Of a DNA stretch of 40,018 nucleotides, positions 1,566 to 20,965 are shown one piece after another; positions within the stretch are counted from its first letter, which is position 1; every line of letters begins with the position of its first letter. The stretch lies in assembly GCA_028288515.1 (NCBI GenBank), contig JAQBNP010000195.1:1-40018 (forward strand). Direction: 5' to 3'. Made by a program: the position numbers and the translations under genes. This DNA comes from Flaviaestuariibacter sp. (GTDB lineage: Bacteria > Bacteroidota > Bacteroidia > Chitinophagales > Chitinophagaceae). Below the pieces are notes generated by a model. The model did not search any database and was not told the DNA's origin. It saw nothing but the letters and a program-made list of their open reading frames with translations.

Positions 1566-1697
1566 AAGAAAGGGCGACCGCCCGCCCGCTTTGCCATTCC
1601 GGCGAATGAGGCGCCGGGCTCCCCCCACAATGACTACGTTTGACTGTGAAGCGCTTCATGCGCCTGGTTCGACTGACCGTAAACTTTAAGCTTGTAT

Positions 1698-4600
1698 ATG
1701 AAACAAAAAGCCTTGCTATCCTTCCTGCTCATGCTGTGTTTTAGCTTCGCGTGGAGCCAATCCCGGACCGTGAGCGGTAAGGTAACGAAAGAGAACTCGA
1801 CCGAAGGGCTGGCGGGCGTGTCGGTGACCGTCAAGGGCACCCGCACCGTCACCACCACCGACAACAGCGGCCAATTCCAGGTCACTGCCCCCGACAAAGC
1901 TACGCTGGTCTTTACCTCCATCGGCTTCAAAGCCAGGGAGATCGCCGTGTCGGGCAGGTCAACCATCGACGTGGCTCTGGCGGAAGACGTGACCTCCCTC
2001 AACGACGTCGTGGTGGTTGGCTACACGTCCATGCGCCGCCGCGACGTGACGACCTCCGTGTCCTCTGTCAGCGCGCGCGACCTCAAGGACATTCCCCTGA
2101 ACTCGGCCGCTGAGGCCATCACCGGCCGCCTGGCAGGTGTGAACGTGACAACGACCGAAGGCCGCCCCGGCGCCGACGTCCTGATCCGTGTTCGCGGTGG
2201 CGGTTCTATCACCCAGGACAACACTCCTTTATATATCGTTGACGGGATCCAGGTTGAGAATGCCCTGTCGATCCTCTCCCCGCAGGAGATCCAGTCCATC
2301 GACGTACTGAAAGACGCCGCCTCCACCGCCATCTACGGCGCCCGCGGCGCGAACGGTGTTGTCGTCATCACCACGAAAGGCGGACGCGAAATGAAAACGC
2401 AGGTGACCTATAACGGGTTTGCCGGCGTTCGCAGCATTGCTAAAAAGCTCGACGTGCTGAAGCCCTACGACTACGTTCTCTACCAGTACCAGCGCTATAA
2501 TGGCAGCGTGGACGACCGCGCCGCCTTCCAGAACCGCTATGGCCGCTGGGAAGACCTCGACATCTATAAGAATGTTCCGTTCGTCGACTGGCAGGACCGC
2601 GTGTTCGGCCGCGACGCCCTCAGCCAGACACATAACCTAAACCTGACCGGCGGAACGAAGACCACCAGCTTCAACCTGACCCTCAACCAGGCAAACGAGG
2701 AAGGCATCATGCTCGAGTCCGGCTACCGCCGCTCCCTCGCCTCCTTCAAGTTCGACCACCGCGTCAGCGACCGCTTCCGTGTCGGCTTCAACACACGCTA
2801 CAGCCGCCAGCGCATTGAAGGCGTGGGCACATCGGCAACAGGCTCCCAAAGCAATAACCGCCTCCGCAACACCGTCCGCTATATTCCCTACATCGCGCCC
2901 GGCCAGGAAAGCATCGTCGACCAGTTTGATGCCGACTACGCCAACCTCACGAACCTGACCAGCCCGGTGCTCCTCGCCCATAACGAGCTGCGCTACGATC
3001 ACCGCAACGACGTTAACATCACCGGGTACGCCAGCATCGACATCATCAAGGGCCTGACCTTCAAATCGACAGCGGGCATGACAAATACGGACACCCGCGT
3101 CAATGCATACAACGGCTCGGTGACCAGCGTCGCCCGCCAGAACGCAAACCTCCCCGTTGTCGTGATCAACACCGGCAACGGTCTCTCGATCACCAATTCA
3201 AACACACTCAATTACAAGAAGACCCTCAGCGGCGCACACAATGTATCGGTGCTCGTAGGCCAGGAGATCTACCAGACGAAGTCAAGCTCCTTCAATGCCA
3301 CAACCAAGTGGATGTCTCCGGACCTGACGCCTGACCAGGCGTTCGCGCAGCTCGATAAGTTCACGGCCCCGACCGGCGGTATCCAGGATAAGCCGACGAC
3401 CAGCCAGTCGGAGACGCACCTGGCCTCTTTCTTCGGCCAGGCGTACTATTCCTACAAAAGCAAGTACACGGCTTCGGTTGCCTTTCGCCGTGACGGCTCC
3501 TCTCTCTTCGGGCCTTTGAACCGCTGGGGCAACTTCCCGTCGGCAGCCCTTGCCTGGCGCCTGTCGCAGGAGAAGTTCATGGAGAATGTCCGCTTCGTAT
3601 CAGACCTGAAGCTTCGTTTTTCCTACGGCGCATCGGGTAATAACCGCCTGCCGGTGGACGCATACAAGACCATGTTCGGAACGAATACATCCAGCTACGC
3701 GTTCGATGAGTCGGTACAGACCGGTATCGCCGCGCAATCCTTCCTTTCGAACCCGAGCCTCCAGTGGGAGACGACGGTATCGCGGAACCTCGGCCTTGAC
3801 TTCTCTCTCTTCAAGAATCGCATCAGCGGCTCCTTCGACGCCTATATCAACAACACGAAGGACCTCCTGATCCTGGCGCTGATCAACGGCACAACAGGCT
3901 ATGCAAACCAATACCAAAACACCGGCAAGACGGAGAACAAGGGAGTGGAGCTGCAACTGAATGCCGACGTCGTGCGCGGAAACAAGCTTACCTGGAATGT
4001 CGGATTCAACATCGCTCACAACCAGAACAAGATCGTGAGTCTCGGCACGGCCGCGGACGGCACGCCCCTGAAATCCTACAAGGTGCAGTCGGGCTGGGTC
4101 AACGCTCTCGAAGATTTCTATGTCGAGGTGGGCAAGCCGATCGGCCAGTTCTATGGCTATGTAACGGACGGCTTCTATACGCCTGCAGATTTCAACTACG
4201 ACCCCGCCACACAGCGCTATACACTGAAAGCCGGTGTCGCCAACAGCAGCGCCGCAGCGCTCGGCAACCGCGCCCCCCAGCCCGGCGACCTGAAGCTGAA
4301 GCGCCTCGCCGGCGATTCGCTGATCGGTGAAAAAGACAAGACGGTTCTCGGTAATGCACAACCGAAGTTCACCGGCGGCTTCAGCACCCAGGTTCGCTAC
4401 GGCAGCTTCGACCTGAGCCTCCTTGCCAACTTCTCCTACGGAAACAAGGTCTATAATGCAAACAACCTGGAGAACACCACCACCTACCAGTATAAGGACA
4501 ATAATATGCTGGCGATCATGGCCGACCGTTACAAGCTCTTCGATGCCAACGGCGTTCGCGTCACCGATCCGGCGGAGCTCGACAAGATGAATGCAAACGC

Positions 4601-4904
4601 GAAATACTGGACGCCGAGCCTCGGCAACTATTTCCTGCATTCGTTCGCGATCGAGGACGGCTCGTTCCTGCGCATCAGCAATATCACGATCGGCTATACG
4701 CTGCCCGCATCGATCGTGAAGAAGACCCGCGTCATCTCCGCGTTCCGCGTCTATGCAACGGTTAACAACCTGTATACGTTTACGAAGTACACGGGCTACG
4801 ATCCGGAGGCCAACACGCGCCGCTCGCCGCTCACGCCGGGTGTCGACTACGCCGCCTACCCGCGCAGCCGCTTTATCCTGGCCGGTGTGAACGTTACCTT
4901 TTAA
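1698..4904 (+). CDS. SusC-family TonB-dependent outer-membrane transporter
   Basis: A 1068-residue SusC/RagA-type TonB-dependent receptor that should import pectic oligosaccharides across the outer membrane together with the SusD protein downstream. The ATG at 1698 gives a clean signal peptide (MKQKALLSFLLMLCFSFAWSQ); a TTG two codons earlier is less likely. The mature protein begins with a carboxypeptidase-regulatory-like beta-sandwich (about residues 22-100), then a TonB-box-like stretch (LNDVVVVGYTS), the plug with the family hallmarks GRLAGVNVTT and PLYIVDGIQ, and the 22-strand barrel ending in an aromatic C-terminus (LAGVNVTF). There is no N-terminal STN domain, so no sign of anti-sigma signalling. 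susD starts 18 bp downstream. Sugar specificity is inferred from the neighbouring enzymes. Confidence 0.95.
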   Translation: MKQKALLSFLLMLCFSFAWSQSRTVSGKVTKENSTEGLAGVSVTVKGTRTVTTTDNSGQFQVTAPDKATLVFTSIGFKAREIAVSGRSTIDVALAEDVTSLNDVVVVGYTSMRRRDVTTSVSSVSARDLKDIPLNSAAEAITGRLAGVNVTTTEGRPGADVLIRVRGGGSITQDNTPLYIVDGIQVENALSILSPQEIQSIDVLKDAASTAIYGARGANGVVVITTKGGREMKTQVTYNGFAGVRSIAKKLDVLKPYDYVLYQYQRYNGSVDDRAAFQNRYGRWEDLDIYKNVPFVDWQDRVFGRDALSQTHNLNLTGGTKTTSFNLTLNQANEEGIMLESGYRRSLASFKFDHRVSDRFRVGFNTRYSRQRIEGVGTSATGSQSNNRLRNTVRYIPYIAPGQESIVDQFDADYANLTNLTSPVLLAHNELRYDHRNDVNITGYASIDIIKGLTFKSTAGMTNTDTRVNAYNGSVTSVARQNANLPVVVINTGNGLSITNSNTLNYKKTLSGAHNVSVLVGQEIYQTKSSSFNATTKWMSPDLTPDQAFAQLDKFTAPTGGIQDKPTTSQSETHLASFFGQAYYSYKSKYTASVAFRRDGSSLFGPLNRWGNFPSAALAWRLSQEKFMENVRFVSDLKLRFSYGASGNNRLPVDAYKTMFGTNTSSYAFDESVQTGIAAQSFLSNPSLQWETTVSRNLGLDFSLFKNRISGSFDAYINNTKDLLILALINGTTGYANQYQNTGKTENKGVELQLNADVVRGNKLTWNVGFNIAHNQNKIVSLGTAADGTPLKSYKVQSGWVNALEDFYVEVGKPIGQFYGYVTDGFYTPADFNYDPATQRYTLKAGVANSSAAALGNRAPQPGDLKLKRLAGDSLIGEKDKTVLGNAQPKFTGGFSTQVRYGSFDLSLLANFSYGNKVYNANNLENTTTYQYKDNNMLAIMADRYKLFDANGVRVTDPAELDKMNANAKYWTPSLGNYFLHSFAIEDGSFLRISNITIGYTLPASIVKKTRVISAFRVYATVNNLYTFTKYTGYDPEANTRRSPLTPGVDYAAYPRSRFILAGVNVTF

Positions 4905-4922
4905 CAGCTAAGCAACTTCTAT

Positions 4923-6752
4923 ATGAAACATACATCATTCTTCGTTCTTTCTGCAGCCGTGCTGGGCATTGCCCTGAGCTCCTGCAAGAAATACCTCGAG
5001 ATCGAGAACCCGTCGACCATCTCCGAAAAGCAGGTGTTCGAAACGGTCAACAATACCAACTCGGCCGTCATTGGCGTCTACGCGATGCTGATCGGTGACA
5101 ACGGCTACGGAAGCCGTATCGCCACGCTGTTCCCGCAATCGGCAGACGACTTCAAGACGTCGGGCGATTACAACCCGGCCGACCGTCGCGGCATCAGCAC
5201 GTACGGTGCCAGCGCCGACAACTCCGACCTCCCGAACCCGTTCCTGCAGCTGTTCCGCGGTATCGAGCGCGCCAACCTGTGCATCAAGTATATCCCTCAA
5301 TCGACCCCGTATAACAGCGGGTCGGCAACCGAAAAAGCCGCCATGCGCCGCTCGCTCGGCGAAGCGCTGACACTTCGTGCGCAGTTTTATTATGAGGCGA
5401 TCCGCAACTGGGGCGACCTGCCCGCGCAGTTCGTGCCGGCCGAGGACCTGCCGGACCTCAACCTGCCGAAAACAGACCAGGACAGCCTCTACAACCATCT
5501 TCTTGCCGACCTCGCACAGGCCGAGGATATGGTTCCCTGGCGTTCGGAATCGGGTAGTTCCGACCTGGCGACCCGCGTGACCAAAGCGTACACGAAAGGC
5601 CTTCGTGCCCGCATTGCACTGGCCCGCGGCGGCTACAAGCTCAATGGAACGACGCATACGATGCAGCGCACGTCCGACTACAAGAACTACTACCAGATCG
5701 CACTCCAGGAGTGCAAGGAGATCATGGATCATCCCGAGCAGCACGACCTGAACCCGGTCTACGAGAATATCTTCAAGTCCCTTCACACCTCTACCCGCAC
5801 CGACCCGACGCATGAAATGATCTTTGAAGTGGGCGCCTACGGAAGCAATGCGGCAACAGACAGCAAGCTTGGCTATTACAATGGCCTTCGCCACAACACA
5901 TCGTCCCGCTTCGGTGGCGGCGGTGGCGGCATCAACGCCATTCCGACCTATTTCTATGAGTTCGACTCAATCGGCGATGTGCGCCGCGACGTAACGATCA
6001 ACTTCTTTGAGATCGATGCCAGCAGCAAGAAGATCGCCAACACGGCCGCAGCGATGACCGACGGAAAGTTTCGCCGGTCGTGGACAGCCATCGGCGGCAC
6101 CTCGCAGAACCTGGCCGTCAACTGGCCCATCCTGCGCTTTGCAGACGTTCACCTGATGTATGCCGAATCCGACAACGAGGTCAACGGCAGCCCGTCAGCG
6201 ACTGCGAAGAACGCGCTTGACAAGGTGCGCCGCCGCGCCTTCGTTGGCAACGAAACCCGCATGGCGCCGATCCCATCCGATTACAACGGTTTCTTTAATG
6301 CGATCGTCCAGGAGCGCCTGCTCGAATTTGGTGGTGAGGGCATTCGCAAGTATGACCTGATCCGCTGGAATATGCTGGCCTCCAAGATCACTGAGACACG
6401 CGCGAAGCTGACCGACTTCATGAACGGCGCCGGTCGCTATGCCAACGTGCCGCTTTATATCTATACGAAACCAGCCGATTACAATGTGCTGCCGACGGCG
6501 CAGGAAATGGCGACGATGGATCTGTACGGCGGCCCTGTATCGAAGGTGTTGTTCGAGCCGGGACTCGGCTCAAACACAGCGCCGGCAGGCTATACCGTGA
6601 AAGCCTGGCGCAACGCGGTGAACCAGGACTATATCACCGGCGACCTGAAAGGATTCGCGCGCTATTTCGAGGCAAACAAGAAAGAGGTGTTCCCGATCCC
6701 AAGCTCGGTGCTTCTCGCCAATAACAAGCTGACACAAAATTTCGGTTATTAA
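4923..6752 (+). CDS. SusD/RagB-family surface glycan-binding lipoprotein
   Basis: A 609-residue SusD-type lipoprotein that forms the lid over the SusC barrel and binds the glycan at the cell surface. The signal peptide ends in a lipobox with Cys21 (ALSSC), followed by KKYLEIENPSTISEKQ, the usual SusD N-terminus. The TPR-like helical core carries family stretches such as RAQFYYEAIRNWGDLP (around residue 155) and FGGEGIRKYDLIRWN (around residue 470), and the C-terminus is KKEVFPIPSSVL followed by LTQNFGY, typical of the family (IP near the end, then NPGY-like). It immediately follows susC. A glycine-rich run (FGGGGGG) near residue 330 is unusual but in frame. Ligand identity (homogalacturonan or rhamnogalacturonan oligomers) is inference from context. 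Confidence 0.95.
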   Translation: MKHTSFFVLSAAVLGIALSSCKKYLEIENPSTISEKQVFETVNNTNSAVIGVYAMLIGDNGYGSRIATLFPQSADDFKTSGDYNPADRRGISTYGASADNSDLPNPFLQLFRGIERANLCIKYIPQSTPYNSGSATEKAAMRRSLGEALTLRAQFYYEAIRNWGDLPAQFVPAEDLPDLNLPKTDQDSLYNHLLADLAQAEDMVPWRSESGSSDLATRVTKAYTKGLRARIALARGGYKLNGTTHTMQRTSDYKNYYQIALQECKEIMDHPEQHDLNPVYENIFKSLHTSTRTDPTHEMIFEVGAYGSNAATDSKLGYYNGLRHNTSSRFGGGGGGINAIPTYFYEFDSIGDVRRDVTINFFEIDASSKKIANTAAAMTDGKFRRSWTAIGGTSQNLAVNWPILRFADVHLMYAESDNEVNGSPSATAKNALDKVRRRAFVGNETRMAPIPSDYNGFFNAIVQERLLEFGGEGIRKYDLIRWNMLASKITETRAKLTDFMNGAGRYANVPLYIYTKPADYNVLPTAQEMATMDLYGGPVSKVLFEPGLGSNTAPAGYTVKAWRNAVNQDYITGDLKGFARYFEANKKEVFPIPSSVLLANNKLTQNFGY

Positions 6753-8447: not shown

Positions 8448-9872
8448 ATGAAATTTGCAGGGTTGATCGGCTTGCTGTGGTTCGGCGGAACATTGTTGTC
8501 CTGTGCGCAGCAGAAGAAGCTGCCCGCAACGCCGGCAGAATCCTCGCGTGCCATCGCATTCCCCGGTGCGGAAGGGTTTGGAAAATACACGACCGGCGGC
8601 CGCGGCGGCCGTATCGAGGTGGTCACGACCCTGGACGACAGCGGCCCGGGAAGCCTCCGCGATGCCCTGCGCGGCAAAGAGCCCAAGCTCGTTGTCTTCG
8701 CCGTCTCCGGCACGATCCACCTGCAGTCCCGCCTTCTCGTTTCTCCAAATACCACCCTGGCCGGGCAGACGGCTCCGGGTGACGGCATCTGTCTTGCCGA
8801 CTACCCGGTATCGCTTGGTGGCGACAATATCATTGTCCGCTACATGCGCTTCCGCATGGGCGATAAGAACCAGAAGGGCGGCATGGTCAATGGCAACGGC
8901 AGCGACGACGCCTTCGGTGGCACAGGCCGCAAGAACATCATCGTCGACCATTGCAGCATGAGCTGGAGCACCGACGAGGTGTTTTCCGTTTATGGCGGCG
9001 ACAGCGTCACCCTGCAATGGAACCTCGTTGCCGAGCCGCTCAATTATTCCTATCATTTTGAGACCGGCGACACCGGCTACGAGCACCACGGCTACGGTGG
9101 GATCTGGGGAGGCCGGCACCTGACGGCACACCACAACCTGCTGGCACACTGCGCCAGCCGCAACCCCCGGTTCGAGGGGACCCGCAATAACCCCGAGGAA
9201 CTCGTCGACTACACCAATAATGTCCTGTACAACTGGGGCCACAACAATGTCTACGGCGGCGAAGGCGGCCAGTACAACGTGGTCAATAACTATTACCGCC
9301 CTGGCCCGCAAACGGCAAAGAATGTAAGGTCGCGCATCGTCAATCCATCGAAGCAGAAGAAACCGGTGATCCCTTTCGGAAAATACTATGTGGCCGGCAA
9401 CGTGGTGGAAGGCGACGATGCCGTGACGGCCGACAACCGCATCGGCGTTCACATGGGCGACGGTACACAGGCTGACAAAGAGGAAGCACTCGTGGCAACA
9501 GCTTTTCCGTCCGTCTCTGTGCCGCCCGAGCCGGCCGCGCGAAGCTTCGCTTTGGTGCTGGCAGGTGTGGGCGCTTCGTTTCGCCGCGACACGCTGGACG
9601 CCCGGATCATCGAGGATGTGAAGAAGGGCCGCGGCCGCTTTATCGACGTGCAGGGAGGCTACCCGCACGGTACTCCCTACGAAGCCACCGCCAACGCATG
9701 GCCGGCGCTTCGATCACTTCCCGCGCCGGTCGACTCGGACCGCGACGGTATGCCCGATTCATGGGAAAAGGCCAATGGCCTCAACCCGGCAAGCGCGGCA
9801 GACGCGTCGCTCACCACGCTCGACCGCCACTACACGAATATTGAAGTCTACATCAACCAGATCATTCGCTGA
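8448..9872 (+). CDS. Pectate lyase, polysaccharide lyase family 1, lipoprotein
   Basis: A 474-residue PL1 pectate lyase that cuts demethylated homogalacturonan by beta-elimination with calcium, giving 4,5-unsaturated products. The signal peptide ends in LLSC (Cys19), so it is probably membrane-anchored and may be surface-exposed. The Bacteroidota PL1 pattern is clear: AFPGAEGFGKYTTGGRGG at the N-terminus, NTTLAGQTAPGDGI, IIVRYMRFRMGD, the calcium-site stretch NIIVDHCSMSWSTDE, and SRNPRFEG with Arg238 and Arg241, the expected catalytic region. The C-terminus (DSDRDGMPDSWEKANGLNP) is a calcium-binding thrombospondin-3-like loop. The same architecture recurs as the first catalytic domain of the giant protein downstream, with closely matching motifs. 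The next gene begins one base after the stop. Confidence 0.94.
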   Translation: MKFAGLIGLLWFGGTLLSCAQQKKLPATPAESSRAIAFPGAEGFGKYTTGGRGGRIEVVTTLDDSGPGSLRDALRGKEPKLVVFAVSGTIHLQSRLLVSPNTTLAGQTAPGDGICLADYPVSLGGDNIIVRYMRFRMGDKNQKGGMVNGNGSDDAFGGTGRKNIIVDHCSMSWSTDEVFSVYGGDSVTLQWNLVAEPLNYSYHFETGDTGYEHHGYGGIWGGRHLTAHHNLLAHCASRNPRFEGTRNNPEELVDYTNNVLYNWGHNNVYGGEGGQYNVVNNYYRPGPQTAKNVRSRIVNPSKQKKPVIPFGKYYVAGNVVEGDDAVTADNRIGVHMGDGTQADKEEALVATAFPSVSVPPEPAARSFALVLAGVGASFRRDTLDARIIEDVKKGRGRFIDVQGGYPHGTPYEATANAWPALRSLPAPVDSDRDGMPDSWEKANGLNPASAADASLTTLDRHYTNIEVYINQIIR

Positions 9873-9873
9873 T

Positions 9874-10629: not shown

Positions 10630-11414
10630 GAATGCGATCAAACAATATCGTGCAGAAGGCCTGTCTTGCGATCATGGCAATGATGATGGTTCTTTCATTT
10701 GCCACGCCACCCGTGAAGAAGACGAAGGTGTGGCTGGTGGGCGATTCCACCATGTGCGAATACGAGCCGCAGCGCTCGCCACTGACGGGATGGGGCATGC
10801 CCTTCGCCACCTTTTTCGATTCATCTGTGGTCATCGACAACCGGGCCAAGGGCGGTCGCAGCACGCGTACGTTTTTAGCGGAAGGGCGCTGGCAGCCTGT
10901 TGCAGACAGCGCATCGGAAGGCGACTGGGTACTGATCCAGTTCGGCCATAACGACGAAGCAAAGGAAGAAAAGTACAAAGACCGCTATACGCCGGTCACC
11001 GATTACAAGACCAACCTGCTTCGCTTCATCCGCGAAGCCCGTGCGCGAAAAGCGAACCCCGTACTCATTACGCCCGTGTCACGCATGCGCTTCGACAAAC
11101 AAGGCAAGGCGATGGAGACCCACGCCGACTATACCGCTGCCATGATCGAAGTGGCGCAGCAGGCTGGCGTTCCTTTGATCGACCTTGATCAAAAGAGCCG
11201 CAGGCTGTTGGACGAATACGGCCCCGCATATGCCAAGCTTCTCTTCATGCAGCTCGTGCCGGGAGAGCACCCGCACTACCCGGAAGGGCAGACCGACAAC
11301 ACACACTTCAATGAGTACGGCGCACGAAAGATCGCCGAGCTCGTTCTATCCGGAATTAAAGAACAAGGCCTCGGACTGGCGCAGCAGATCGCCAGGCCGC
11401 CGGTAAAAAAATAA
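10626..11414 (+). CDS. Rhamnogalacturonan acetylesterase, CE12 family (second copy)
   Basis: A 262-residue CE12-type acetylesterase, the tandem partner of the preceding gene. The N-terminus has a hydrophobic signal segment (IVQKACLAIMAMMMVLSFA). The catalytic blocks are VWLVGDST (Ser41), DNRAKGGRSTRTF, IQFGHNDEAKE and DNTHFNEYGA with Asp224 and His227. The two proteins share the same block order and C-terminal tail (PVKK/PVAKK), but differ around block I (CANKEVRAYPETG against MCEYEPQRSPLTG) and in the insertion after GHND, which suggests different acetyl positions or chain lengths. It starts within the stop of the first copy. A 28-bp gap separates it from the giant gene. Confidence 0.92.
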   Translation: MRMRSNNIVQKACLAIMAMMMVLSFATPPVKKTKVWLVGDSTMCEYEPQRSPLTGWGMPFATFFDSSVVIDNRAKGGRSTRTFLAEGRWQPVADSASEGDWVLIQFGHNDEAKEEKYKDRYTPVTDYKTNLLRFIREARARKANPVLITPVSRMRFDKQGKAMETHADYTAAMIEVAQQAGVPLIDLDQKSRRLLDEYGPAYAKLLFMQLVPGEHPHYPEGQTDNTHFNEYGARKIAELVLSGIKEQGLGLAQQIARPPVKK

Positions 11415-11442: not shown

Positions 11443-14400
11443 ATGAATCAATTTTACGCCTCCCGGTACAGAGCAACCGCATCGTTTCTCACGATTCTCG
11501 GCCTGCTCGTTTTTTCCTGCTTCTCCCTGCAAGCACAGCAGCCGGCATTCCCGGGCGCAGAGGGCGCGGGCAAATTCACGACGGGCGGTCGTGGCACTGT
11601 GTCCACCGCCACGACGGTCTTCGAAGTGACAAACCTCAGTGACGACGGTCTGGCCGGAAGCCTGCGGTATGCGGTCACGACAGCGGCAACCTATCGCACG
11701 GTTGTTTTCCGCGTGTCGGGAACGATCCATCTCAACTCGAAGCTGAACATCAAGGCAAATACGACACTGGCAGGCCAGACGGCGCCGGGGGCGGGCATCT
11801 GCGTGGCGGACCATCCCGTTGTCATCAACGGCGACAACGTGATCGTCCGGTATATGCGGTTCCGGATGGGAGACAAGAACCAGAAGAAGGTTGACGGCAG
11901 CGGCAACCCGGTTGACGGGAGCGGCGGCGACGATGCCCTCGGCGGAACCGGGGTCAGCAATATCATCATCGACCATTGCTCCGTTAGCTGGAGCGACGAT
12001 GAAGCCCTGACCATCTATCGCGGAGACAACCTTTCCATCCAATGGTGCTTCATTACCGAGCCTCTGAATTATTCCTACCACTGGGAAACCGGCGATACGG
12101 ACTGGGAGCGCCATGGCTACGGCGGCATCTGGGGCGCCAAGCGGGGCACAATGCACCACAACCTGCTGGCTCATTGCCAGAGCCGCAACCCACGCTTCGC
12201 CGGCATCAGCACCTACACGCCCGCAACGGTTGGCGTGGAGAACGTTGACCTGCGCAATAACGTGATCTATAACTGGGGGATCAACACCGTCTATGGTGGC
12301 GAGGGCGGCAATTACAACGTCGTCAATAATTATTATAAGTACGGCCCTGCGACATCATCAGGCGTGCGCTACCGGATCTGCAACCCCGGCTATACGGTCA
12401 CCAATAACGTGGTCACGATCCCCTACGGAAAATGGTATGTGAATGGAAACTATGTTGATGGCTCCTCCGCCAACACGCTCAACAACTGGAAAGGTGTGGT
12501 GATGCAGGGAACAGCGGCAGATACAACGCAGGCAAAGGTCACTGTGCCTTTCGACCTCGGCTACCCGGTAACAACACATACGGCGCAGGAAGCCTACGAA
12601 TATGTGCTCCAGGGTGCAGGCTGTACGCTGCCGGTCCGCGATACGCTCGACCAGCGCATCGAGCAGAATGTGCGCAACCGCACCGGCCAGATCATCGATG
12701 TGCAGGGCGGATATCCACACGGAACTCCCTATGCATCCACGGTCAATGCCTGGCCTGCCCTCGCTTCAACGACGCCCCCCGCGGATGACGACCATGATGG
12801 CATGCCCAATGCGTGGGAGACATCCAACGGCCTCAACCCAGCCGATGCGTCCGACCGGAACGCATATGCCCCGAATGGCTATACGAACCTGGAGAACTAC
12901 CTGAACTCCCTGACGAACCCGGCCGTGATCACTGCGCCGACTATTTTTGCCAACGGCGCCCTGGCCAGTTTCAGCCAGACCGTCGGCACGCCGTCAACAA
13001 CACAGAGCTTCCTGATCTCGGCCATGAATCTTACTGCGCCGATGACAGTCACACCACCGGCCGGGTACGAGATCTCCGCAAACGGCGGCTCCACCTGGGC
13101 CACAAGCTCGAGCCCTCTCGTGCTGACACCAGCGAGCGGTACCATTGCATCAACAACCATTACCGTGCGCCTGAATGCAGCTACGGTCGGAAACTATTCC
13201 GGCTCGATCTCGGCCACAAGCACCGGCGCATCGAACGTTCTTGTTCCCGTCAGCGGAACGACCTCGCTCGTCTCCCAGATCCAGAGCATCGGTTCTTTCC
13301 CTGAAATGGATGGCGGCTTCGAGCGCCAGCCGGCGGGAGCGACGACCACAAGCTCGACACACACCTCGACAACGAAATGGGAATCATCGACCGCCTTCAA
13401 TATCGATTCTCTCTCGGCGCGCACCGGCCTCAAATCCATGCATTGGAACGGGGCGAGCACGAGCAATAAGTATCTGTTCACTCCTGTTCTTTCGAGCAGT
13501 GTTCTGCAAAGCAGCACGACATACGTCGTTCAATTCTGGTACCGTCTTCCTGCGCCACTGGCGGCCAATATCGCCGGCACAAGTGACCTCAAGCTGTACG
13601 GCTGGTCGACCATGATCGGCGCCACCGGTGGAACAGGCAGCACGATCTCCGCGCCACTCACACTGAACAGCGGAAGTCCCTCCGGCCCCGGATGGACTCT
13701 CTTCTCTACGACCCTGACGACCACCGCTGATGCGCCGACATCGACATATGCAGGACTTCGCGTGACCTACCCGCAGGCGCCGTATTTCGACGTCGACGAC
13801 TACGTGGTGTATGCGGGAAGCGCGGTGGACAATACAGCACCTGATCCAGTGACGGCCCCGGTTGCCACGGGCGACGAAGCAACATCGTCCATCGCTCTTT
13901 CCTGGACGGCCCCCGCAACAGGCGTCGATGGTGGCGGCTACATGATCGTCCGCAGCGCATCGGCAACGGTTCCGGTACCTAATACAAAAGGCGTGTACAA
14001 TACCGGCAACAAGATCGGCTCCGACACGATCCTTTACATCGGCACGTCAACCAGCTATACCGATTTCGCCGTGTCTCCCGGCGTTACCTATTATTATACG
14101 ATCTACACGGTTGATAAGGCATACAACTATTCAACGCCCGTGCAGAAGCAGGGCATCATTGCGGCCGACCCGGCAACGATCATTACATCGGGTACCGTCA
14201 ACCCGTTCAGCCAGGCTGTTGGCGCGCCGAGCGCATCCCAGACATATACCGTCAGTGCAACGAACCTGTCGGGCAACCTTTCCATCACACCGCCAAGCGG
14301 CTTCGAAGTCTCTGCAAATGGTGGCGCCACCTGGTTCAGCAGCACGCCGTTGACGCTTTCGCCGACAGGCGGCACCATCGCTTCCATGCCGATCAGCGTT

Positions 14401-17400
14401 CGCCTCAACGCAGGATCTGCAGGCACATACAGCGGCGCCATCACTCATGCCAGCGCCGGTGCAACGACTGTCAACGTGGTCGTGAATGGCACGGCCACGA
14501 GCGTCACGACGCCGCCAGCCGGAACGAACGTGATCGTCGCGCGTGATGGGTCGGGGAACTTTTCGTCCATCCAGGCGGCCATCGATGCGGCGCCGACAGG
14601 CCGTACGACGCCCTATATCATCTTCATCAAGAACGGCAAATACCGCGAGAAGCTGACCATTCCTTCCAACAAGCCTTTCATCCACCTGATCGGCGAGAGC
14701 GTTGCGGGTACCGTCCTGTCATGGGATGATTACTCAGGCAAGCCCATGCCGGGAGGCGGAACCTATGGCACGAGCAATTCGGCGACACTGATCATCAATG
14801 CAACCGACTGCTTCCTGTCAACGCTGACCGTTGAGAATACGACGGGCGACGCTCCCCAGGCCCTTGCGATCAACGTGAATGCCGATCGCGTGGTGCTGGT
14901 CAACTGCCGCTTCCTGGGAGGACAGGATACTGTGCTCACAAACGGTACCGGGCGCAACTACTTCAAGAATTGCTATATTGACGGAACCGTCGACTTCATA
15001 TTCGGCAGCGCGAAAGCGATCTTCGATTCGACCATCATCTACCCGAAGACGCGCCAGGACGGGCTTACCGGGTCCTACATCACGGCGGCAAACACGCCGG
15101 CAGGCCAGGCATACGGCTATGTATTCCGCGACTGCACCATCCCGCGCAACCAGGGGATCACATCCTATGTACTCGGCAGGCCCTGGCAAAATGACGGCAC
15201 CACCGTTCCTGTTGCCAACAACAAGGTGGTGTTCATCAACACGATCATGGGACCGAATATCGTCAAGCCCGAAGGCTGGTCGACATGGTCCGCCGGCACC
15301 AACACGAGCCTGATCTATTACGGCGAATACCTGAGCCGCTCGTTCGACGGCACTCCCGTCAGCGTTGCGCAACGTGTGCCATGGTCATACCAGCTGACGG
15401 CTGCCGAAGCGGCGTCATATACGTTTGCCAATGTGTTCGGAAGCTGGGATCCCTGCACCGTGTCTCCTTCTGTCTGCGCAGGACCTGCACGGCCCGTTGC
15501 CGTCTCGAATTTCCGTGGCAACAAAGGCACGCCTACCGTGCCGTCCACGCTGAGCTGGAACCTGAGCTGGGCCATGCCGGGCATCTCGTTCCAATTGTTC
15601 CGGAGTTCGGACAACGTGAGCTTCTCACAGATCAGCCAATCCCTGTCACCGAACGATTCGGCCTATAGCTTCTCATCATTCGATGCGGTCCCGCCTGCCG
15701 GCACCACTTACTATTACTACCTGAAAGCATCAAAAGCAGGACTGGCCACGCACATCACAGATACCATCCAGATCTCCAGCACGCAGACCATCGTGACAAC
15801 AGGCACGATGAACCCGTTCCTGCAGGGCGTTGGTCTTCCATCGGGCGCACAGACCTATGTAGTATCGGGCAGCAACCTGACCGATAACATCACGATCACG
15901 GCCCCTGCCGGCTACGAAATCTCTTCCAACGGGGGCACGACGTGGAACAATTCCGCGATGCCAATTGTGCTGACACAGACGAACAACACGATCGCCAATA
16001 CAACGATCTCCGTGCGGCTGAACGCGGCCACGCCCGGGACCTATGCCGGCAATATTGTTCACACGAGCGCCGGCGCCGTTTCGGTAAACGTTCCGGTGAC
16101 CGGAACCGTGCAAGCCACGCCACTGGCGGTGTCCGTCGTGCTGCAACACTGGCCGATGACACTCAGTAATGCCGACAGCGCCGCCATCCGCTCTGCGGGC
16201 GTAACGGCAAGCACACCAACATTCAAGAACTTCTATTCATCAAATGGTACGACTGTCGCTGTCGTACCGGCCTATTCGACAGCGCGCGGCCAGGCATTCG
16301 GACCGGGCACGACAGGCGATGGCACCTGGGGCACGCCATCAGGTCCGGGCGGCAACCTGTCCCGCGTCTATTATGAGCAGTTCACGGTAACGGCGAGCAG
16401 CGGCTATTTCGTCCGTGTCGACAGCATCATCGCGACGTCTGCCTTCTACAATACGTCCAGCAATACGAAGCTGGCAGTCGTGTACTCGCTCAGCAACTTC
16501 GTTTCCGACTCGGCAGATGTTTCTGCTGCAGCGGGACCGTTCGCAACGCCGATCGCACTCACCAACCAGACGGCGGGTCCGACCGTCGTTTACGCCATGT
16601 CCGTCAACGGCGCGACAGGCATCACGGTGCCGGCCGGCCAAACGCTGACCTTCCGTCTCTACTATAGTTGCGGCAGCACGACGGCAGGGCGCTATGCGCT
16701 GCTGAAAGATGTAAAGGTGAAAGGCCTTGCCACCGTTGCAAGCGCGCCTCCGACACTGGCAGCCACAGCAACTCTTAACCCGTTCACACAGACAGCCGGC
16801 GCTCCGGGGCCTGTGCAGACATACACACTGACAGGAACCACACTAGCCGGAAATGTGACGGTCACACCTCCGGCCGGATTCGAAGTCTCTGCTGACGGCA
16901 CGACCTGGTTCGGCAATGCGACGCCATTGTCGATCACGCCGGTGAGCGGTTCCGTCAACCAAACCATCTCCGTGCGCCTCAACGCGGCAACCAGCGGCAG
17001 CTACAGCGGCTCCATCGTCCATGCGTCTACCGGTGCAACGTCGGTAACAGTGGCGGTGTCGGGCACAACGGTTCCGGCTCCGTCGATCACGATGACGGGT
17101 ACGCTAGCCGGGTTCGCCCAGACGGCGGGCGTGCCATCCGCCGTGCAGACCTATACGGTTTCCGGCAGCAACCTGTCAGGCTCGATCCTCATTACCCCGC
17201 CCGCAGGATACGAAGTGTCGGCGAATGGCGGCCTGAACTGGTTCACGACGGCATCGCCTCTGACACTGACACCAACTGCAGGCGCCGTTGCAACAACAAC
17301 AATCAGCGTTCGCCTCAATGCAGCAACGTCCGGTACCTATTCCGGCTCGATCGCGCATGTGAGCAGTGGTGCGACGACTGTCAACCAACCGGTAACCGGT

Positions 17401-18984
17401 ATTACGGTTGCCGCTCCGCAGATCAATACAACCGGAACGCTGACAAGCTTCGCGCAAACCGTGGGCGCTCCATCGGCAACACAGACCTATTCAGTTTCCG
17501 GCGCCGGCCTCACGGGCGCCATCACCATCACACCGCCTGCAGCCTATGAAGTATCGGCGGACGGCGGCGCTACCTGGTCCACATCGGCCGCGCCACTTGT
17601 ACTGGCTCCCACCGCGGGGGTGGTGGCAGCAACCACCATTACGGTCAGGCTGAACGCTGCCACAGCGGGCGTTTACAGCGGCTCGATCACGCAATCAAGC
17701 CCGGGCGCAACAACGGTTTCGATCGCGGTGACTGGCACAACCGTGCCACCGCCGGCGATTGTCGTAACAGGCGCCCTTGCGGCCTTCGCGCAAACAGTCG
17801 GCACACCGTCGGGCGTACAGACCTATACCATCTCCGGAACAAACCTGACCGGCGCCCTCACGATCACGCCACCTGCTAACTACCAGGTATCGTCGAACGG
17901 CGGCACAACATGGTTTGGCTCCACAGCGCCTCTAGTGCTGACGCCGACCGGCGGATCGATCGCATCGACAACGATCAGCGTTCGTCTGAATGCAACAGCA
18001 CCCGGAACGTTTGCAGGCAATATCACGAACACAACCGCCGGCACGGCAACAGCGAATGTTGCTGTAACGGGAACGGTCGTGCCAGCGCCTTCCCTGACGA
18101 TCACGGGCACGGTCACGCCGTTCGCGCAAACGATCGGCAACCCGTCGGCAATCAAGACCTATACGGTTGCCGGCGCCAACCTTGTTGGCAATGTCACGTT
18201 GACAGTGGCTGCACCTTTTGAGATCTCAACCGATGGCGTGACCTGGTCCACATCGGTCAGCCTCACACCGGTATCCGGCACCATTGCAGGCTCGACGATC
18301 AGCGTTCGGATGAATGCAACGACCGCGGGCGTCTATAGCGGGCAGATCGCGCACGCCACAAGCGGCGCAGCCTCGGTTCTCCTGGCGCTCTCCGGCACGG
18401 CAGTTCCACCGCCAGCCCTCACGGTAACCCAGGCATTGACACCGTTCGAGCACCTGCGCGGAACGCCGTCAGCCGTGCAGACCTACACCGTCGCCGGAGC
18501 CAACCTCGTTGGCAACGTGACGGTGACTCCGCCGCTCCGCTATGAGATCTCTCTCAACGGATCGACCTGGCAAACGACGCCTCTGACACTGGCACCTTCT
18601 GCCGGCACCCTTGCGGCCACGACGATCAGCATCCGGCTGAACGGGGCTGTTCCGGGTCCGTATAATGGAACGATCGTGCATGCAACGAGTGGCACCAGCT
18701 CCGTGCTTGTGCCGGTCACCGGGTTTACACGGGTGAACACGCCGGTGCCGGTAACGCTGTATCCTGTACCTGCAACGAGAACACTGTTTGTGGCGCATCC
18801 GCAAATGGCGACGCGCACGGCCCTGGTGATCTATTCATCATCCGGCCAGAAGGTATCGGTGTCAACGATCGAGGCAAATACATTCGAGACAAGGATCGAC
18901 GTTTCCCACCTCGTGCAGGGAATCTATACGATCGTCATTGGAACGGGCAGCGAGCAGCAAACGCTTCGCTTCATTAAAGGATAA
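11443..18984 (+). CDS. Giant secreted PL1 pectate lyase - CE8 pectin methylesterase fusion with T9SS tail
   Basis: A 2513-residue multidomain exoenzyme. Layout by residue: signal peptide 1-31 (ends LQA); PL1 pectate lyase about 34-440 (AFPGAEGAGKFTTGGRG, NIIIDHCSVSWSDDEA, SRNPRFAG); calcium loop DDDHDGMPNAWE near 450; Ig-like repeat 1, 500-606; jelly-roll-like module 607-794; fibronectin III 795-912; repeat 2, 914-1018; CE8 pectinesterase 1027-1345 with Gln1139, Gln1161-Asp1162, Asp1184 (DFIFGSA) and Arg1246 (LGRPW), the full expected active site; FN3-like 1347-1446; repeat 3, 1447-1559; unrecognised beta-rich module 1560-1764; repeats 4-9 in tandem 1769-2430; T9SS type A sorting domain 2431-2513 (VTLYPVPATRTLFV ... 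LVQGIYTIVI). Demethylation by CE8 would create substrate for the attached lyase. It should be secreted by T9SS and attached or released at the surface. A strong terminator follows. Confidence 0.93.
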   Translation: MNQFYASRYRATASFLTILGLLVFSCFSLQAQQPAFPGAEGAGKFTTGGRGTVSTATTVFEVTNLSDDGLAGSLRYAVTTAATYRTVVFRVSGTIHLNSKLNIKANTTLAGQTAPGAGICVADHPVVINGDNVIVRYMRFRMGDKNQKKVDGSGNPVDGSGGDDALGGTGVSNIIIDHCSVSWSDDEALTIYRGDNLSIQWCFITEPLNYSYHWETGDTDWERHGYGGIWGAKRGTMHHNLLAHCQSRNPRFAGISTYTPATVGVENVDLRNNVIYNWGINTVYGGEGGNYNVVNNYYKYGPATSSGVRYRICNPGYTVTNNVVTIPYGKWYVNGNYVDGSSANTLNNWKGVVMQGTAADTTQAKVTVPFDLGYPVTTHTAQEAYEYVLQGAGCTLPVRDTLDQRIEQNVRNRTGQIIDVQGGYPHGTPYASTVNAWPALASTTPPADDDHDGMPNAWETSNGLNPADASDRNAYAPNGYTNLENYLNSLTNPAVITAPTIFANGALASFSQTVGTPSTTQSFLISAMNLTAPMTVTPPAGYEISANGGSTWATSSSPLVLTPASGTIASTTITVRLNAATVGNYSGSISATSTGASNVLVPVSGTTSLVSQIQSIGSFPEMDGGFERQPAGATTTSSTHTSTTKWESSTAFNIDSLSARTGLKSMHWNGASTSNKYLFTPVLSSSVLQSSTTYVVQFWYRLPAPLAANIAGTSDLKLYGWSTMIGATGGTGSTISAPLTLNSGSPSGPGWTLFSTTLTTTADAPTSTYAGLRVTYPQAPYFDVDDYVVYAGSAVDNTAPDPVTAPVATGDEATSSIALSWTAPATGVDGGGYMIVRSASATVPVPNTKGVYNTGNKIGSDTILYIGTSTSYTDFAVSPGVTYYYTIYTVDKAYNYSTPVQKQGIIAADPATIITSGTVNPFSQAVGAPSASQTYTVSATNLSGNLSITPPSGFEVSANGGATWFSSTPLTLSPTGGTIASMPISVRLNAGSAGTYSGAITHASAGATTVNVVVNGTATSVTTPPAGTNVIVARDGSGNFSSIQAAIDAAPTGRTTPYIIFIKNGKYREKLTIPSNKPFIHLIGESVAGTVLSWDDYSGKPMPGGGTYGTSNSATLIINATDCFLSTLTVENTTGDAPQALAINVNADRVVLVNCRFLGGQDTVLTNGTGRNYFKNCYIDGTVDFIFGSAKAIFDSTIIYPKTRQDGLTGSYITAANTPAGQAYGYVFRDCTIPRNQGITSYVLGRPWQNDGTTVPVANNKVVFINTIMGPNIVKPEGWSTWSAGTNTSLIYYGEYLSRSFDGTPVSVAQRVPWSYQLTAAEAASYTFANVFGSWDPCTVSPSVCAGPARPVAVSNFRGNKGTPTVPSTLSWNLSWAMPGISFQLFRSSDNVSFSQISQSLSPNDSAYSFSSFDAVPPAGTTYYYYLKASKAGLATHITDTIQISSTQTIVTTGTMNPFLQGVGLPSGAQTYVVSGSNLTDNITITAPAGYEISSNGGTTWNNSAMPIVLTQTNNTIANTTISVRLNAATPGTYAGNIVHTSAGAVSVNVPVTGTVQATPLAVSVVLQHWPMTLSNADSAAIRSAGVTASTPTFKNFYSSNGTTVAVVPAYSTARGQAFGPGTTGDGTWGTPSGPGGNLSRVYYEQFTVTASSGYFVRVDSIIATSAFYNTSSNTKLAVVYSLSNFVSDSADVSAAAGPFATPIALTNQTAGPTVVYAMSVNGATGITVPAGQTLTFRLYYSCGSTTAGRYALLKDVKVKGLATVASAPPTLAATATLNPFTQTAGAPGPVQTYTLTGTTLAGNVTVTPPAGFEVSADGTTWFGNATPLSITPVSGSVNQTISVRLNAATSGSYSGSIVHASTGATSVTVAVSGTTVPAPSITMTGTLAGFAQTAGVPSAVQTYTVSGSNLSGSILITPPAGYEVSANGGLNWFTTASPLTLTPTAGAVATTTISVRLNAATSGTYSGSIAHVSSGATTVNQPVTGITVAAPQINTTGTLTSFAQTVGAPSATQTYSVSGAGLTGAITITPPAAYEVSADGGATWSTSAAPLVLAPTAGVVAATTITVRLNAATAGVYSGSITQSSPGATTVSIAVTGTTVPPPAIVVTGALAAFAQTVGTPSGVQTYTISGTNLTGALTITPPANYQVSSNGGTTWFGSTAPLVLTPTGGSIASTTISVRLNATAPGTFAGNITNTTAGTATANVAVTGTVVPAPSLTITGTVTPFAQTIGNPSAIKTYTVAGANLVGNVTLTVAAPFEISTDGVTWSTSVSLTPVSGTIAGSTISVRMNATTAGVYSGQIAHATSGAASVLLALSGTAVPPPALTVTQALTPFEHLRGTPSAVQTYTVAGANLVGNVTVTPPLRYEISLNGSTWQTTPLTLAPSAGTLAATTISIRLNGAVPGPYNGTIVHATSGTSSVLVPVTGFTRVNTPVPVTLYPVPATRTLFVAHPQMATRTALVIYSSSGQKVSVSTIEANTFETRIDVSHLVQGIYTIVIGTGSEQQTLRFIKG
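16747..18732 (+). repeat. Six tandem in-frame coding repeats of about 324-336 bp
   Basis: Six consecutive copies within the giant gene start at 16747, 17074, 17410, 17746, 18082 and 18406, with lengths of 327, 336, 336, 336, 324 and 327 bp. Each encodes a beta-sandwich-like unit with the pattern PxPxxxxTGTLxxFAQTxGxPS, QTYTVSG, ITPPAGYEVS, TTISVRLNA and a closing VxVTGT. Three more copies of the same family are scattered earlier in the protein (about 12940-13260, 14182-14496 and 15781-16120). The copies have diverged at the protein and DNA level, so this is an old array, though still a place where recombination or assembly collapse could change copy number. Confidence 0.88.
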
Positions 18985-19034: not shown

Positions 19035-20003
19035 GTGAGGACAGAAACCAGGAATCGAAAGAAACGTTTGTGGCGCCGACAGGCATCGCTTTTTGCGGCC
19101 GTCTTTGCGTTCGCGATCATGCAGGCTGGCGCGCAGGAGTTTATCCCGCTGTGGCCTGCTGGAAAGAAGCCAAACAGCAAGGGGCGGGCCGTAACGGATT
19201 CAATTGCCAACGAGCGCATTTGGCGCGTCGGGACGCCGGGCATTTATGCATTCCCGGTGCCGAAGTCGGAGAACAAGGGAACAACGGTCCTTATCTGTCC
19301 CGGCGGCGGCTACGAGCGCGTCTCGTATATCTACAACGGCTTCCAGTTCGCGCGTTGGTTCAATGCGCATGGCATCAACGCATTCGTGTTGATCTACCGT
19401 CTTCCGCAGCAACCCGACCTCGGTAACAGGCAGCTGGCACCTTTGCAGGACGCGCAACGGGCAATGCGGATCTTGCGGGCGAACCGCGGCCGCTGGGGCC
19501 TTCGCGATGGCGCGATCGGTGTCATGGGGATCAGCGCCGGCGGGCATGTTGCCTCGATGCTGGGAACACATACAACCGATGAATCAGCTGTCGGCGATTC
19601 GGTTGATGCAGCTGCTTTCCGACCCGACTTCATGCTCCTCCTGTCGCCTGTGATCTCGATGGGGGAGTTTGCACACCCGGGTAGCCGGCGCTTGTTTCTT
19701 GGCGCAGATACTTCTGCCGCCATGGTGCAGGCTTACTCCACGGACAAGCAGGTCAGCGCGGCAACGCCACCAACATTTCTCGTGCATGCGCAGAATGACA
19801 GCTCCGTTAATGTTCGCAACAGTCTCCTCTTTTTCAATGCCCTCATCCGTCAAAATATCTCGGCCAGCATTCACGTCTTCCCGCAGGGTGGTCACGGCAT
19901 CGCGCTCGTAGACAACCCCGGCTCAACGGACCTGTGGCTGGACCTCCTTGAGCGCTGGATGCTCGAGCAAAAATTCACCCAACCCCTAAAGAAATCACCA
20001 TGA
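19035..20003 (+). CDS. Secreted alpha/beta-hydrolase esterase (acetylesterase-like)
   Basis: A 322-residue alpha/beta-hydrolase of the carbohydrate-esterase-like type often annotated near xylan and pectin loci. The oxyanion-hole region is TTVLICPGGGYERVS, the nucleophile elbow GISAGG with Ser167, the acid Asp255 (VHAQNDSSV), and the base His287 (PQGGHGIAL): a complete catalytic triad. The start is a GTG at 19035; no upstream in-frame ATG fits after the terminator. A signal segment (ASLFAAVFAFAIMQAGAQ) follows an Arg/Lys-rich N-terminus. Its place directly before a pectin methylesterase, overlapping it by four bases, suggests removal of acetyl groups from pectin, but the family also includes xylan and other acetylesterases. 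Confidence 0.85.
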   Translation: MRTETRNRKKRLWRRQASLFAAVFAFAIMQAGAQEFIPLWPAGKKPNSKGRAVTDSIANERIWRVGTPGIYAFPVPKSENKGTTVLICPGGGYERVSYIYNGFQFARWFNAHGINAFVLIYRLPQQPDLGNRQLAPLQDAQRAMRILRANRGRWGLRDGAIGVMGISAGGHVASMLGTHTTDESAVGDSVDAAAFRPDFMLLLSPVISMGEFAHPGSRRLFLGADTSAAMVQAYSTDKQVSAATPPTFLVHAQNDSSVNVRNSLLFFNALIRQNISASIHVFPQGGHGIALVDNPGSTDLWLDLLERWMLEQKFTQPLKKSP

Positions 20004-20965
20004 AGCTTTTTCTCACGCTGGCCGTTTCAATGACGCTCCTTGTGTGTGCGCAGGCGCAAAAAAAACAGAAGACGATCGTCGTTGCGCAGGACGGAAGCGG
20101 CCAGTACCGTACGGTGCAGGCAGCCCTCAATGCAGTGCCGGAAGGAAACAAAAAGCCGGTCACCATCCGGATCAGGAAAGGGATCTACAAAGAAGTAGTG
20201 ATCGTTGACGCGACAAAGAATTTTGTGCGCCTTGTCGGTGAAGACCCAAAAACGACAGTGATCACCTTCGACAACCATGCCGGCACAAAAGCATCCAACG
20301 GCGATACGCTCAATACATGGACATGTCCGTCAGTCTTTGTTTATGGGAGTGATTTTACCGCGGAGGGACTCACATTCAACAATGCGGCCGGCTTTACAGC
20401 TGGCCAGGCGGTGGCACTTCGCGTGGAAGGCAACCGTGCTGCGTTCCGCAACTGCCGCATGACGGGCAACCAGGATGTCCTGTTCCTGAGCGGCTCCGGT
20501 GTCAAGCACTATTTTCGCGATTGTTATATCGAAGGAACAACGGACTTTATTTTCGGGGCGGCCACGGCCGTGTTCTCGAACTGCCACATTCACAGCAAAA
20601 AGAATTCGCACGTAACGGCCGCTTCCACCAACAGTATTATTCCATTCGGCTTTGTCTTCTTTGACTGCAAGCTCACGGCAGACAGCGCCTTCAAGAAGGT
20701 GTCACTCGGGCGGCCGTGGAGCCCGACGGCTTCCGTTACCTATATCCGTTGCTGGATGGGCGACCACATTCTCCCGGAGGGATGGAATAACTGGAAGAAC
20801 CCCGCCAATGAAGCAACCGCCCGGTTCGCCGAATACAAAAGCACGGGCCCTGGCGCCAACCCGACGGCACGCGCTCCGTGGACAAAGCAGCTCACGGACG
20901 AGCAGGCATCCAGGTATACGCTCAAAACGATCCTGGGTACCTGGGATCCGGAGAAATTGTGGTAA
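20000..20965 (+). CDS. Pectin methylesterase, CE8 family
   Basis: A 321-residue pectinesterase that hydrolyses methyl esters of homogalacturonan, preparing it for lyases and polygalacturonases. The signal peptide is MKLFLTLAVSMTLLVCAQAQ. The right-handed beta-helix has the family motifs GIYKEVV, GQAVALRV, GNQDVLF with Gln158-Asp159, DFIFGAA with Asp182, and LGRPW with Arg238; all catalytic residues are present. The C-terminus (ILGTWDPEKLW) is also standard. The start overlaps the preceding esterase stop (ATGA), giving a methyl/acetyl de-esterification pair. It is a free-standing counterpart of the CE8 domain in the giant protein and probably works in the periplasm on imported oligomers. Confidence 0.95.
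   Translation: MKLFLTLAVSMTLLVCAQAQKKQKTIVVAQDGSGQYRTVQAALNAVPEGNKKPVTIRIRKGIYKEVVIVDATKNFVRLVGEDPKTTVITFDNHAGTKASNGDTLNTWTCPSVFVYGSDFTAEGLTFNNAAGFTAGQAVALRVEGNRAAFRNCRMTGNQDVLFLSGSGVKHYFRDCYIEGTTDFIFGAATAVFSNCHIHSKKNSHVTAASTNSIIPFGFVFFDCKLTADSAFKKVSLGRPWSPTASVTYIRCWMGDHILPEGWNNWKNPANEATARFAEYKSTGPGANPTARAPWTKQLTDEQASRYTLKTILGTWDPEKLW

Follow-up and report, generated by a model that had tools for sequence, protein, structure and literature searches.

The window analysed in our study is a stretch of 40,018 nucleotides from Flaviaestuariibacter sp. that makes up the whole of contig JAQBNP010000195.1, and our analysis concerns one gene within it, at 11443-18984 on the + strand, whose open frame begins with ATG and encodes a product of 2513 residues. 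From the N- to the C-terminus, this product carries a signal peptide, a lyase domain of the polysaccharide lyase family 1 (PL1) type, linker modules, a methylesterase domain of carbohydrate esterase family 8 (CE8), further modules and a sorting tail of the type IX secretion system (T9SS). Its parts are listed below, with the evidence for each in brackets (Ig, immunoglobulin; FN3, fibronectin type III; CBM, carbohydrate-binding module; HMM, hidden Markov model). BLASTP was run with single modules against PL1/CE8 proteins of >500 residues, and its hit rows include duplicate loci.

11443..11535, +, signal peptide, about residues 1-31, ending ...FSLQAQ/QPAF (by eye)
11533..12642, +, PL1-type pectate lyase domain, residues 31-400 (9buj, PelZ, residues)
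12640..12936, +, lyase C-terminal segment, residues 400-498, with the motif DDDHDGMPNAWE, Ca-loop-like by eye (BLASTP)
12937..13266, +, Ig-like repeat copy 1, residues 499-608 (repeat HMM, E 4.5e-49)
13276..13842, +, CBM4/CBM22-like beta-sandwich, residues 612-800 (BLASTP, AlphaFold, Foldseek, VIA)
13846..14145, +, FN3 module, residues 802-901 (PF00041 below cut-off; kept in fused proteins)
14173..14499, +, Ig-like repeat copy 2, residues 911-1019 (repeat HMM)
14506..15477, +, CE8 pectin methylesterase domain, residues 1022-1345 (PF01095, 1qjv, 1gq8, residues)
15478..15783, +, second FN3-like module, residues 1346-1447, directly after CE8 (BLASTP, 124 hit rows)
15784..16113, +, Ig-like repeat copy 3, residues 1448-1557 (repeat HMM)
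16114..16749, +, second beta-sandwich module, residues 1558-1769 (BLASTP, AlphaFold, VIA)
16750..18732, +, six tandem Ig-like repeats, residues 1770-2430, probable spacer or stalk (repeat HMM)
18757..18984, +, T9SS type A C-terminal sorting domain, residues 2439-2509, and stop (PF18962, TIGR04183)

An earlier note on this DNA had described two intact catalytic domains within a single T9SS substrate, and both the domain searches and the residue counts reported here bear out that description for a single predicted T9SS substrate lying within a pectin polysaccharide utilization locus (PUL). The gap between the lyase (to about residue 400) and CE8 (from residue 1022) is about 620 residues, close to the figure of about 590 given earlier, and the Ig-like, beta-sandwich and FN3 modules placed in it were recovered, with the lyase C-terminal segment besides. 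The part that follows CE8, comprising an FN3-like module, an Ig-like repeat, the second beta-sandwich and the six tandem Ig-like repeats, had been left out of that description. The signal peptide contains a Cys in the context VFSC, which by eye is a poor lipobox.

By homology and residue content, the N-terminal domain is a PL1-type pectate lyase. Residues 33-361 match the solved structure 9buj, named 'Pectate lyase', at E 8.2e-51 (profile search E 1.2e-88), and NCBIfam PelZ matches the domain at E 2.9e-21, far under its equivalog cut-off of 840 bits. R248, R251, E187, D164, D177 and H178, which we take to include the catalytic Arg and the acidic Ca-site residues, are all present in the window protein. 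Five of them (R248, R251, E187, D177 and H178) were found in 78/78 aligned PL1 domains, 27 of these from fused proteins (26 forward, 1 reversed), while D164 was retained in 74/78 and in 26/27 of the fused ones; fragments of <280 residues were excluded from this set, among them the PL1 of locus L154, cut by a contig end. The lyase C-terminal segment bearing DDDHDGMPNAWE gave 71 BLASTP hit rows, in fused and PL1-tail proteins. A requirement for Ca2+ and a preference for demethylated substrate are suggested for this domain by its residues and by analogy with ErPelPL1, a Bacteroidota enzyme of PL1 subfamily 2 with an optimum at 1 mM Ca2+ (PMC10992097; statements on this and the other papers cited refer to excerpts of them).

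The CE8 domain was matched by PF01095 at residues 1029-1330 (E 4.2e-54, 183.7 bits against a cut-off of 27) and was alignable with the solved structures 1qjv and 1gq8, presumably the Erwinia and carrot CE8 enzymes, respectively. Q1139, Q1161, D1162, D1184, R1246 and W1248 are all present, and the six residues, to which we assign the roles assumed for the Gln/Gln/Asp/Asp/Arg/Trp set of the plant and Erwinia enzymes, were found in 99/99 CE8 domains of the clade defined below, including 28/28 fused ones (27 forward, 1 reversed). As the catalytic residues are retained in the window protein and in its aligned relatives, both enzymes look competent in all of these.

The C-terminal tail was recognized by PF18962 at residues 2439-2509 (E 5.5e-10, 39.8 bits against a cut-off of 27) and by TIGR04183 (E 6.6e-10, 38.8 bits against a cut-off of 23). 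A search of the same genome for two components of the secretion apparatus, SprA and a PorU-type sortase, returned both, SprA as two contig pieces of 2053 and 327 bits and the sortase at 1299 bits. The genome also holds 36 sorting-tail matches, 34 of them above cut-off, and the fusion protein is included. The product is therefore a predicted T9SS type A substrate, whose export we infer from its tail and from these genes.

The modules between and behind the enzymes differ in their distribution. An HMM of the Ig repeat, of about 109 residues, was built and scanned over the PL1/CE8 proteins; the window protein contains nine copies, the maximum among the proteins scanned, with eight in the runner-up, and these repeats are probable spacers. 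The module at residues 612-800 gave 18 BLASTP hit rows, every one a fused protein, and the FN3 module at residues 802-901 was conserved among fused proteins; neither was found in the split PL1-tail proteins of the BLASTP set. The AlphaFold model of residues 612-800 (pLDDT 79) matched CBM22, CBM16 and CBM4 structures in Foldseek (best E 2.3e-5, TMq 0.53) and, in VIA, CBM4-2 (Z 13.3, root-mean-square deviation 2.8, 149 residues aligned), the top VIA row being a glycoside hydrolase family 51 (GH51) enzyme at Z 14.1. No Pfam family matched the window copy, and among 15 relatives one was matched by CBM_4_9 (E 3.9e-5). The modelled fold is a beta-sandwich that resembles CBM4/CBM22, with putative carbohydrate binding. 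The second beta-sandwich, at residues 1558-1769, gave 117 BLASTP hit rows and is common to split and fused CE8-tail proteins, as is the second FN3-like module. Its AlphaFold model is good (pLDDT 91.4), no Pfam family was found for the window copy, and its VIA matches are middling, with CBM22 at Z 10.3 (root-mean-square deviation 4.0, 146 aligned) and, lower, the carbohydrate-binding domain of a putative pectate lyase, 8x8h, at Z 8.9. These models suggest a CBM-like or galactose-binding-like fold with a putative ligand.

The window as a whole is a full pectin PUL, with a SusC/SusD pair, pectin-active enzymes and galacturonate-catabolism families. Upstream of the fusion, the order is a LacI-type regulator, SusC, SusD, a DUF5123 protein, a free PL1 and two GDSL esterases. 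The fusion is followed by a BD-FAE-type esterase, a free CE8, a GFO/IDH/MocA protein, GH43, GH28, a GH88-family enzyme and a divergent CE8, and then by a mannitol-dehydrogenase-family oxidoreductase, galactarate/altronate dehydratase, UxaC, a PfkB kinase, an aldolase of the 2-keto-3-deoxy-6-phosphogluconate (KDPG) type, a major facilitator superfamily transporter and KduI. A histidine-kinase-type ATPase protein and a sigma-54 response regulator close the locus on the other strand. The neighbours of most relevance to the fusion are as follows.

380-1414, -, LacI-type regulator
1692..6752, +, SusC-like and SusD-like transporter pair
8448..9872, +, free PL1, 474 residues, putative lipoprotein (phmmer with the fusion's PL1, 399 bits; LLSC by eye)
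9775-11414, +, tandem pair of GDSL esterases (PF13472), alike in their N-terminal motifs
20000..20965, +, free CE8, 321 residues, signal peptide without a good lipobox (PF01095, E 1e-67)
27457-28488, +, third CE8-like protein (PF01095 over profile positions 2-131 only)

The GDSL pair we take to be, probably, pectin or rhamnogalacturonan acetylesterases of the CE12 type, and the true start of the first may be 9874 rather than 9775. The third CE8-like protein, overlooked earlier, has its second catalytic Gln replaced (AGDT) and reads GRYH at the RPW motif by eye; its sequence suggests that it may be a divergent CE8 or one of altered activity. The free PL1 and free CE8 had been proposed as a parallel, cell-bound set of enzymes, and this idea stands in part. 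The lipobox of the free PL1, LLSC, is plausible by eye, and free enzymes often accompany the fusion: within the limits set by the locus ends, a free PL1 occurs in 15 of 27 fused loci, a free CE8 in 16 and both in 11. On the other side, a suitably placed Cys was seen by eye in 9/16 distinct free PL1 N-termini, the window's included, and was lacking in 7/16, and the free CE8 is more likely periplasmic because its N-terminus, LLVCAQAQ, is a poor lipobox.

To place the fusion among its relatives, 294 genomes of the family Chitinophagaceae were surveyed. A CE8 relative at E≤0.001 was present in 128 of them and a member of the window's CE8 clade (≥290 bits) in 31, or 32 with genome G047, whose frame scores 357 bits; 40 regions were fetched, and a PL1–CE8 fusion was found in 15 genomes, the window's and 14 others. 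A scan of named genomes covered the best 80 loci of at least 345 confirmed relatives. Merging 117 CE8 rows above 290 bits left 99 distinct clade CE8s, of which 27 lie in PL1–CE8 fusions and 1 in a CE8–PL1 protein. A separate tailed PL1 gene lies near a further 29, within 500 bases for 23 and farther off in the locus for 6 (two of these in L168), and 17 at contig ends were left unclassed. Among the 27 forward fusions, the PL1 of L154 is truncated where the contig ends, and L167 shows no tail. Fused proteins occur in the Chitinophagaceae genera Niastella, Terrimonas, Paraflavitalea, Chitinophaga, Gynurincola, Lacibacter, Paraflavisolibacter and Flaviaestuariibacter, and elsewhere in Flectobacillus, Arcicella, Flavilitoribacter and one record labelled Cellulophaga. 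The last, from Cellulophaga sp. BC115SP (L117), has the same length as the fusion of Flectobacillus longus (L118) and is joined to it by short tree branches, so its organism label may be wrong. Within the window's own genus, two tailed proteins of 2325-2355 residues (L215:2135-9112 and L216:9055-16122) carry a divergent N-terminal PL1 and no CE8 match.

The reversed order was found in L126 within the window's surveyed relatives and again at phylum level. In a sample of 395 genomes, a CE8-profile match was present in 77 and a clade member of >500 bits in 4, the window's included. Among 20 further phylum regions, 4 contained a CE8-first frame (L187:4574-8347, L196:4952-9076, L197:4503-11789 and L198:7435-14721), all under one family and genus code, the family being a Bacteroidota family other than the window's. 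All four carry sorting tails, with weak scores in L197 and L198, and CBM6 modules are present in the three that were Pfam-scanned (L187, L196 and L197). Because their domain order differs and their CE8 scores are lower, these proteins appear to be independent of the window's clade. In L199, CE8 is fused to a PF00544 lyase. In L200 its partner is a lyase of the PL10 type (PF09492), and the protein has 682 residues and no sorting-tail match.

Phylogenetic inference indicated that the fused state has changed repeatedly. On trees built by a quick method, the fused label requires 8 changes for CE8, at least 6 of them forced by well-supported branches, and 8 for PL1, at least 7 of them so forced. 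The approximately unbiased (AU) test was applied to PL1 and to a smaller CE8 set of 88 rows (82 from the clade and 6 free CE8s, the 17 contig-end CE8s being excluded), on which the label needs 9 changes; the PL1 tree and the CE8 tree for this test were built with a simpler model. A single fused clade was rejected for PL1, both for all 27 domains (p 4.8e-46) and for the 26 forward ones (p 6.3e-6), and for CE8 with the 27 forward fusions (p 5.1e-6). In the PL1 tree, the Flectobacillus-type PL1 stands apart from the main fused group and adjoins a split PL1-tail protein. As judged from these trees, more than one PL1 lineage is joined to this CE8 clade. The fusion most likely arose by joining of neighbouring PL1-tail and CE8-tail genes, the separate forms of which persist in relatives.

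Our preferred reading, to which we give a probability of about 0.75, is that the product is a dual pectinase exported by the T9SS and encoded in a PUL for homogalacturonan degradation. Outside the cell, methyl esters would be stripped from pectin by CE8, after which the Ca-dependent PL1 domain would cleave the chain by beta-elimination where it has been demethylated. The polymer may be bound by one or both CBM-like modules, and the array of Ig and FN3 modules may space the enzymes from the cell, to which the protein would presumably be attached, or from one another. Oligomers would pass through SusC/D to GH28, the GH88-family enzyme, the free CE8 and the free PL1, and their products would enter the galacturonate pathway through UxaC, altronate dehydratase, the PfkB kinase and the KDPG-type aldolase. 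The benefit, and any synergy, would come from delivering the two activities together, at a 1:1 ratio, in a single export event, probably with no precise channel between them.

Several observations weigh against this reading. The genome is 84% complete and lies in 303 contigs. Pfam PF00544 matched the isolated lyase domain at E 0.004 (17.2 bits against a cut-off of 24), was not among the Pfam matches of the whole protein at E≤1, and was found at E≤1 in 5/23 members of set A2 (best 1.4e-5); because this match is sub-threshold, the PL1 name rests on the homology to 9buj and PelZ and on the conserved residues. The FN3 match (PF00041, E 0.0062) is likewise below cut-off. The module at residues 612-800 also matches non-CBM chains, including a phage baseplate protein (Z 13.0) and meprin (Z 11.1), its non-CBM beta-sandwich matches spanning Z 10-13 overall. 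Residues 1558-1769 had no Foldseek match at E≤0.001, and their VIA score of Z ~10 to CBM22/CBM4 is tied with meprin. No tailed PL1 partner was found in the locus for 25/99 clade CE8s, so the pairing is not obligatory, and the window's genus carries the fusion in 5/18 genomes, the window included (one of the five running off its contig before a tail is reached), so the fusion is dispensable there.

Bacteria that live on methylated pectin must both demethylate and cleave it. Pairing of a lyase with CE8 is already known elsewhere. A bifunctional lyase/methylesterase has reportedly been found in Antarctic Pseudoalteromonas, a report that was not confirmed among the titles listed and is not relied on here. 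Butyrivibrio is a Firmicute, in which neither a T9SS nor SusC/D would be expected. One close likeness is the CE8-PL1-Doc protein of Ruminococcus flavefaciens (ORF02371 of FD-1 and counterparts in two other strains), a multimodular protein with a signal peptide that likewise combines the two domains, but is CE8-first with a cellulosome dockerin, whereas the window protein is PL1-first with a T9SS tail (PMC2930009, PMC4081043). Ruminococcus albus has PL10-CE8 (PMC4081043). PmeC5 of Butyrivibrio fibrisolvens is a secreted protein of 2089 residues in which CE8 is combined with adhesin-like domains and with a pectate lyase, of PL9 rather than PL1 (PMC12109409). Within the Bacteroidota, a Maribacter PUL enzyme combines a pectate lyase with CE8, but that lyase is PL10, not PL1 (PMC8072126). 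PEL3 of Clonostachys rosea is a CE8-PL1 protein, although fungal and with no T9SS (PMC6223089). Large multimodular T9SS-linked enzymes are described for Ca. Paraporphyromonas polyenzymogenes, although these are cellulases, not pectinases (PMC5831590). No description of a T9SS PL1–CE8 protein was found among the matches listed from the Creative Commons-licensed PubMed Central literature, subscription journals lying outside that scope, and none appears in the excerpts of PMC10807430, PMC9599418, PMC3534657, PMC10927867, PMC2721979, PMC4769552, PMC3079729, PMC9606717 or PMC8056085. The earlier note had named, as grounds for refutation, a fusion that is widespread and already described, and this applies in part: the PL1–CE8 fusion is real and widespread, not rare, and the pairing is in print for other settings, the T9SS form not having been found there.

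Four other explanations were weighed against that of a dual pectinase whose activities are usefully delivered together. The first, a neutral one in which simple mutations fuse and separate neighbouring tailed genes without any gain in function, is unlikely, although it is favoured by the tailed PL1 genes that lie no more than 500 bases from 23 clade CE8s and by the 8 label changes on each domain tree, most of them forced. Set against it, fusions recur in several lineages and in both orders, other lyase families have also been joined (PL10-CE8 and PL9 with CE8), and some fused subclades have the CBM-like and FN3 modules not found in split PL1-tail proteins. Substrate channelling, in which CE8 and PL1 held at fixed geometry would hand the demethylated chain directly over, is compatible with two intact active-site sets and with the CBM-like and Ig modules lying between the domains in the window protein. 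It is nevertheless improbable and was not favoured, as linker length and domain order vary: the PL1-to-CE8 linkers range over 91-632 residues among the 27 forward fusions, the order is reversed in L126, L187, L196, L197 and L198, and 29 clade CE8s instead have their tailed PL1 in a gene of its own nearby. Co-delivery is preferred over a fixed channel on account of the same linker range, the two orders and the frequent split pairs. CAZyme domains in general can lose activity, and one of the two here might be catalytically dead and serve as a pectin-binding module; no specific support for this was found in our data, and it is very improbable given that all catalytic and Ca-binding residues assumed above are kept in the window protein, that the catalytic sets of relatives are complete and that D164 is present in all but one of the fused PL1s. 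That two genes were joined artificially in assembly or reading is conceivable, since the window spans an entire contig and the genome is fragmented, but it is refuted by independent genomes, in which 26 further distinct loci, one of them truncated where its contig ends, show the same architecture; they include the named strains Niastella soli, Chitinophaga tropicalis and Lacibacter luteus.

A broader proposal, which we offer tentatively and hold to be somewhat more doubtful than not, is that Bacteroidota have repeatedly and convergently built T9SS lyase–methylesterase fusions, in both orders, from different PL1 lineages and with CBM-like and Ig-stalk modules, and that fusion improves surface attack on methylated pectin. 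If true, such T9SS machines would be a counterpart of the dockerin-borne CE8-PL1 enzymes. The naturally split and fused versions, in both orders, provide a comparative set for testing the benefit of coupling a lyase to an esterase, and the fusions supply candidate bifunctional pectinases. One relative extends the architecture further: the tailed protein of Gynurincola endophyticus (L123:4592-13126, 2844 residues) contains a PF00544 lyase (731-893), a window-type PL1 (1023-1375) and CE8 before its sorting tail, and so carries three enzymes, two lyases and one CE8, in one chain.

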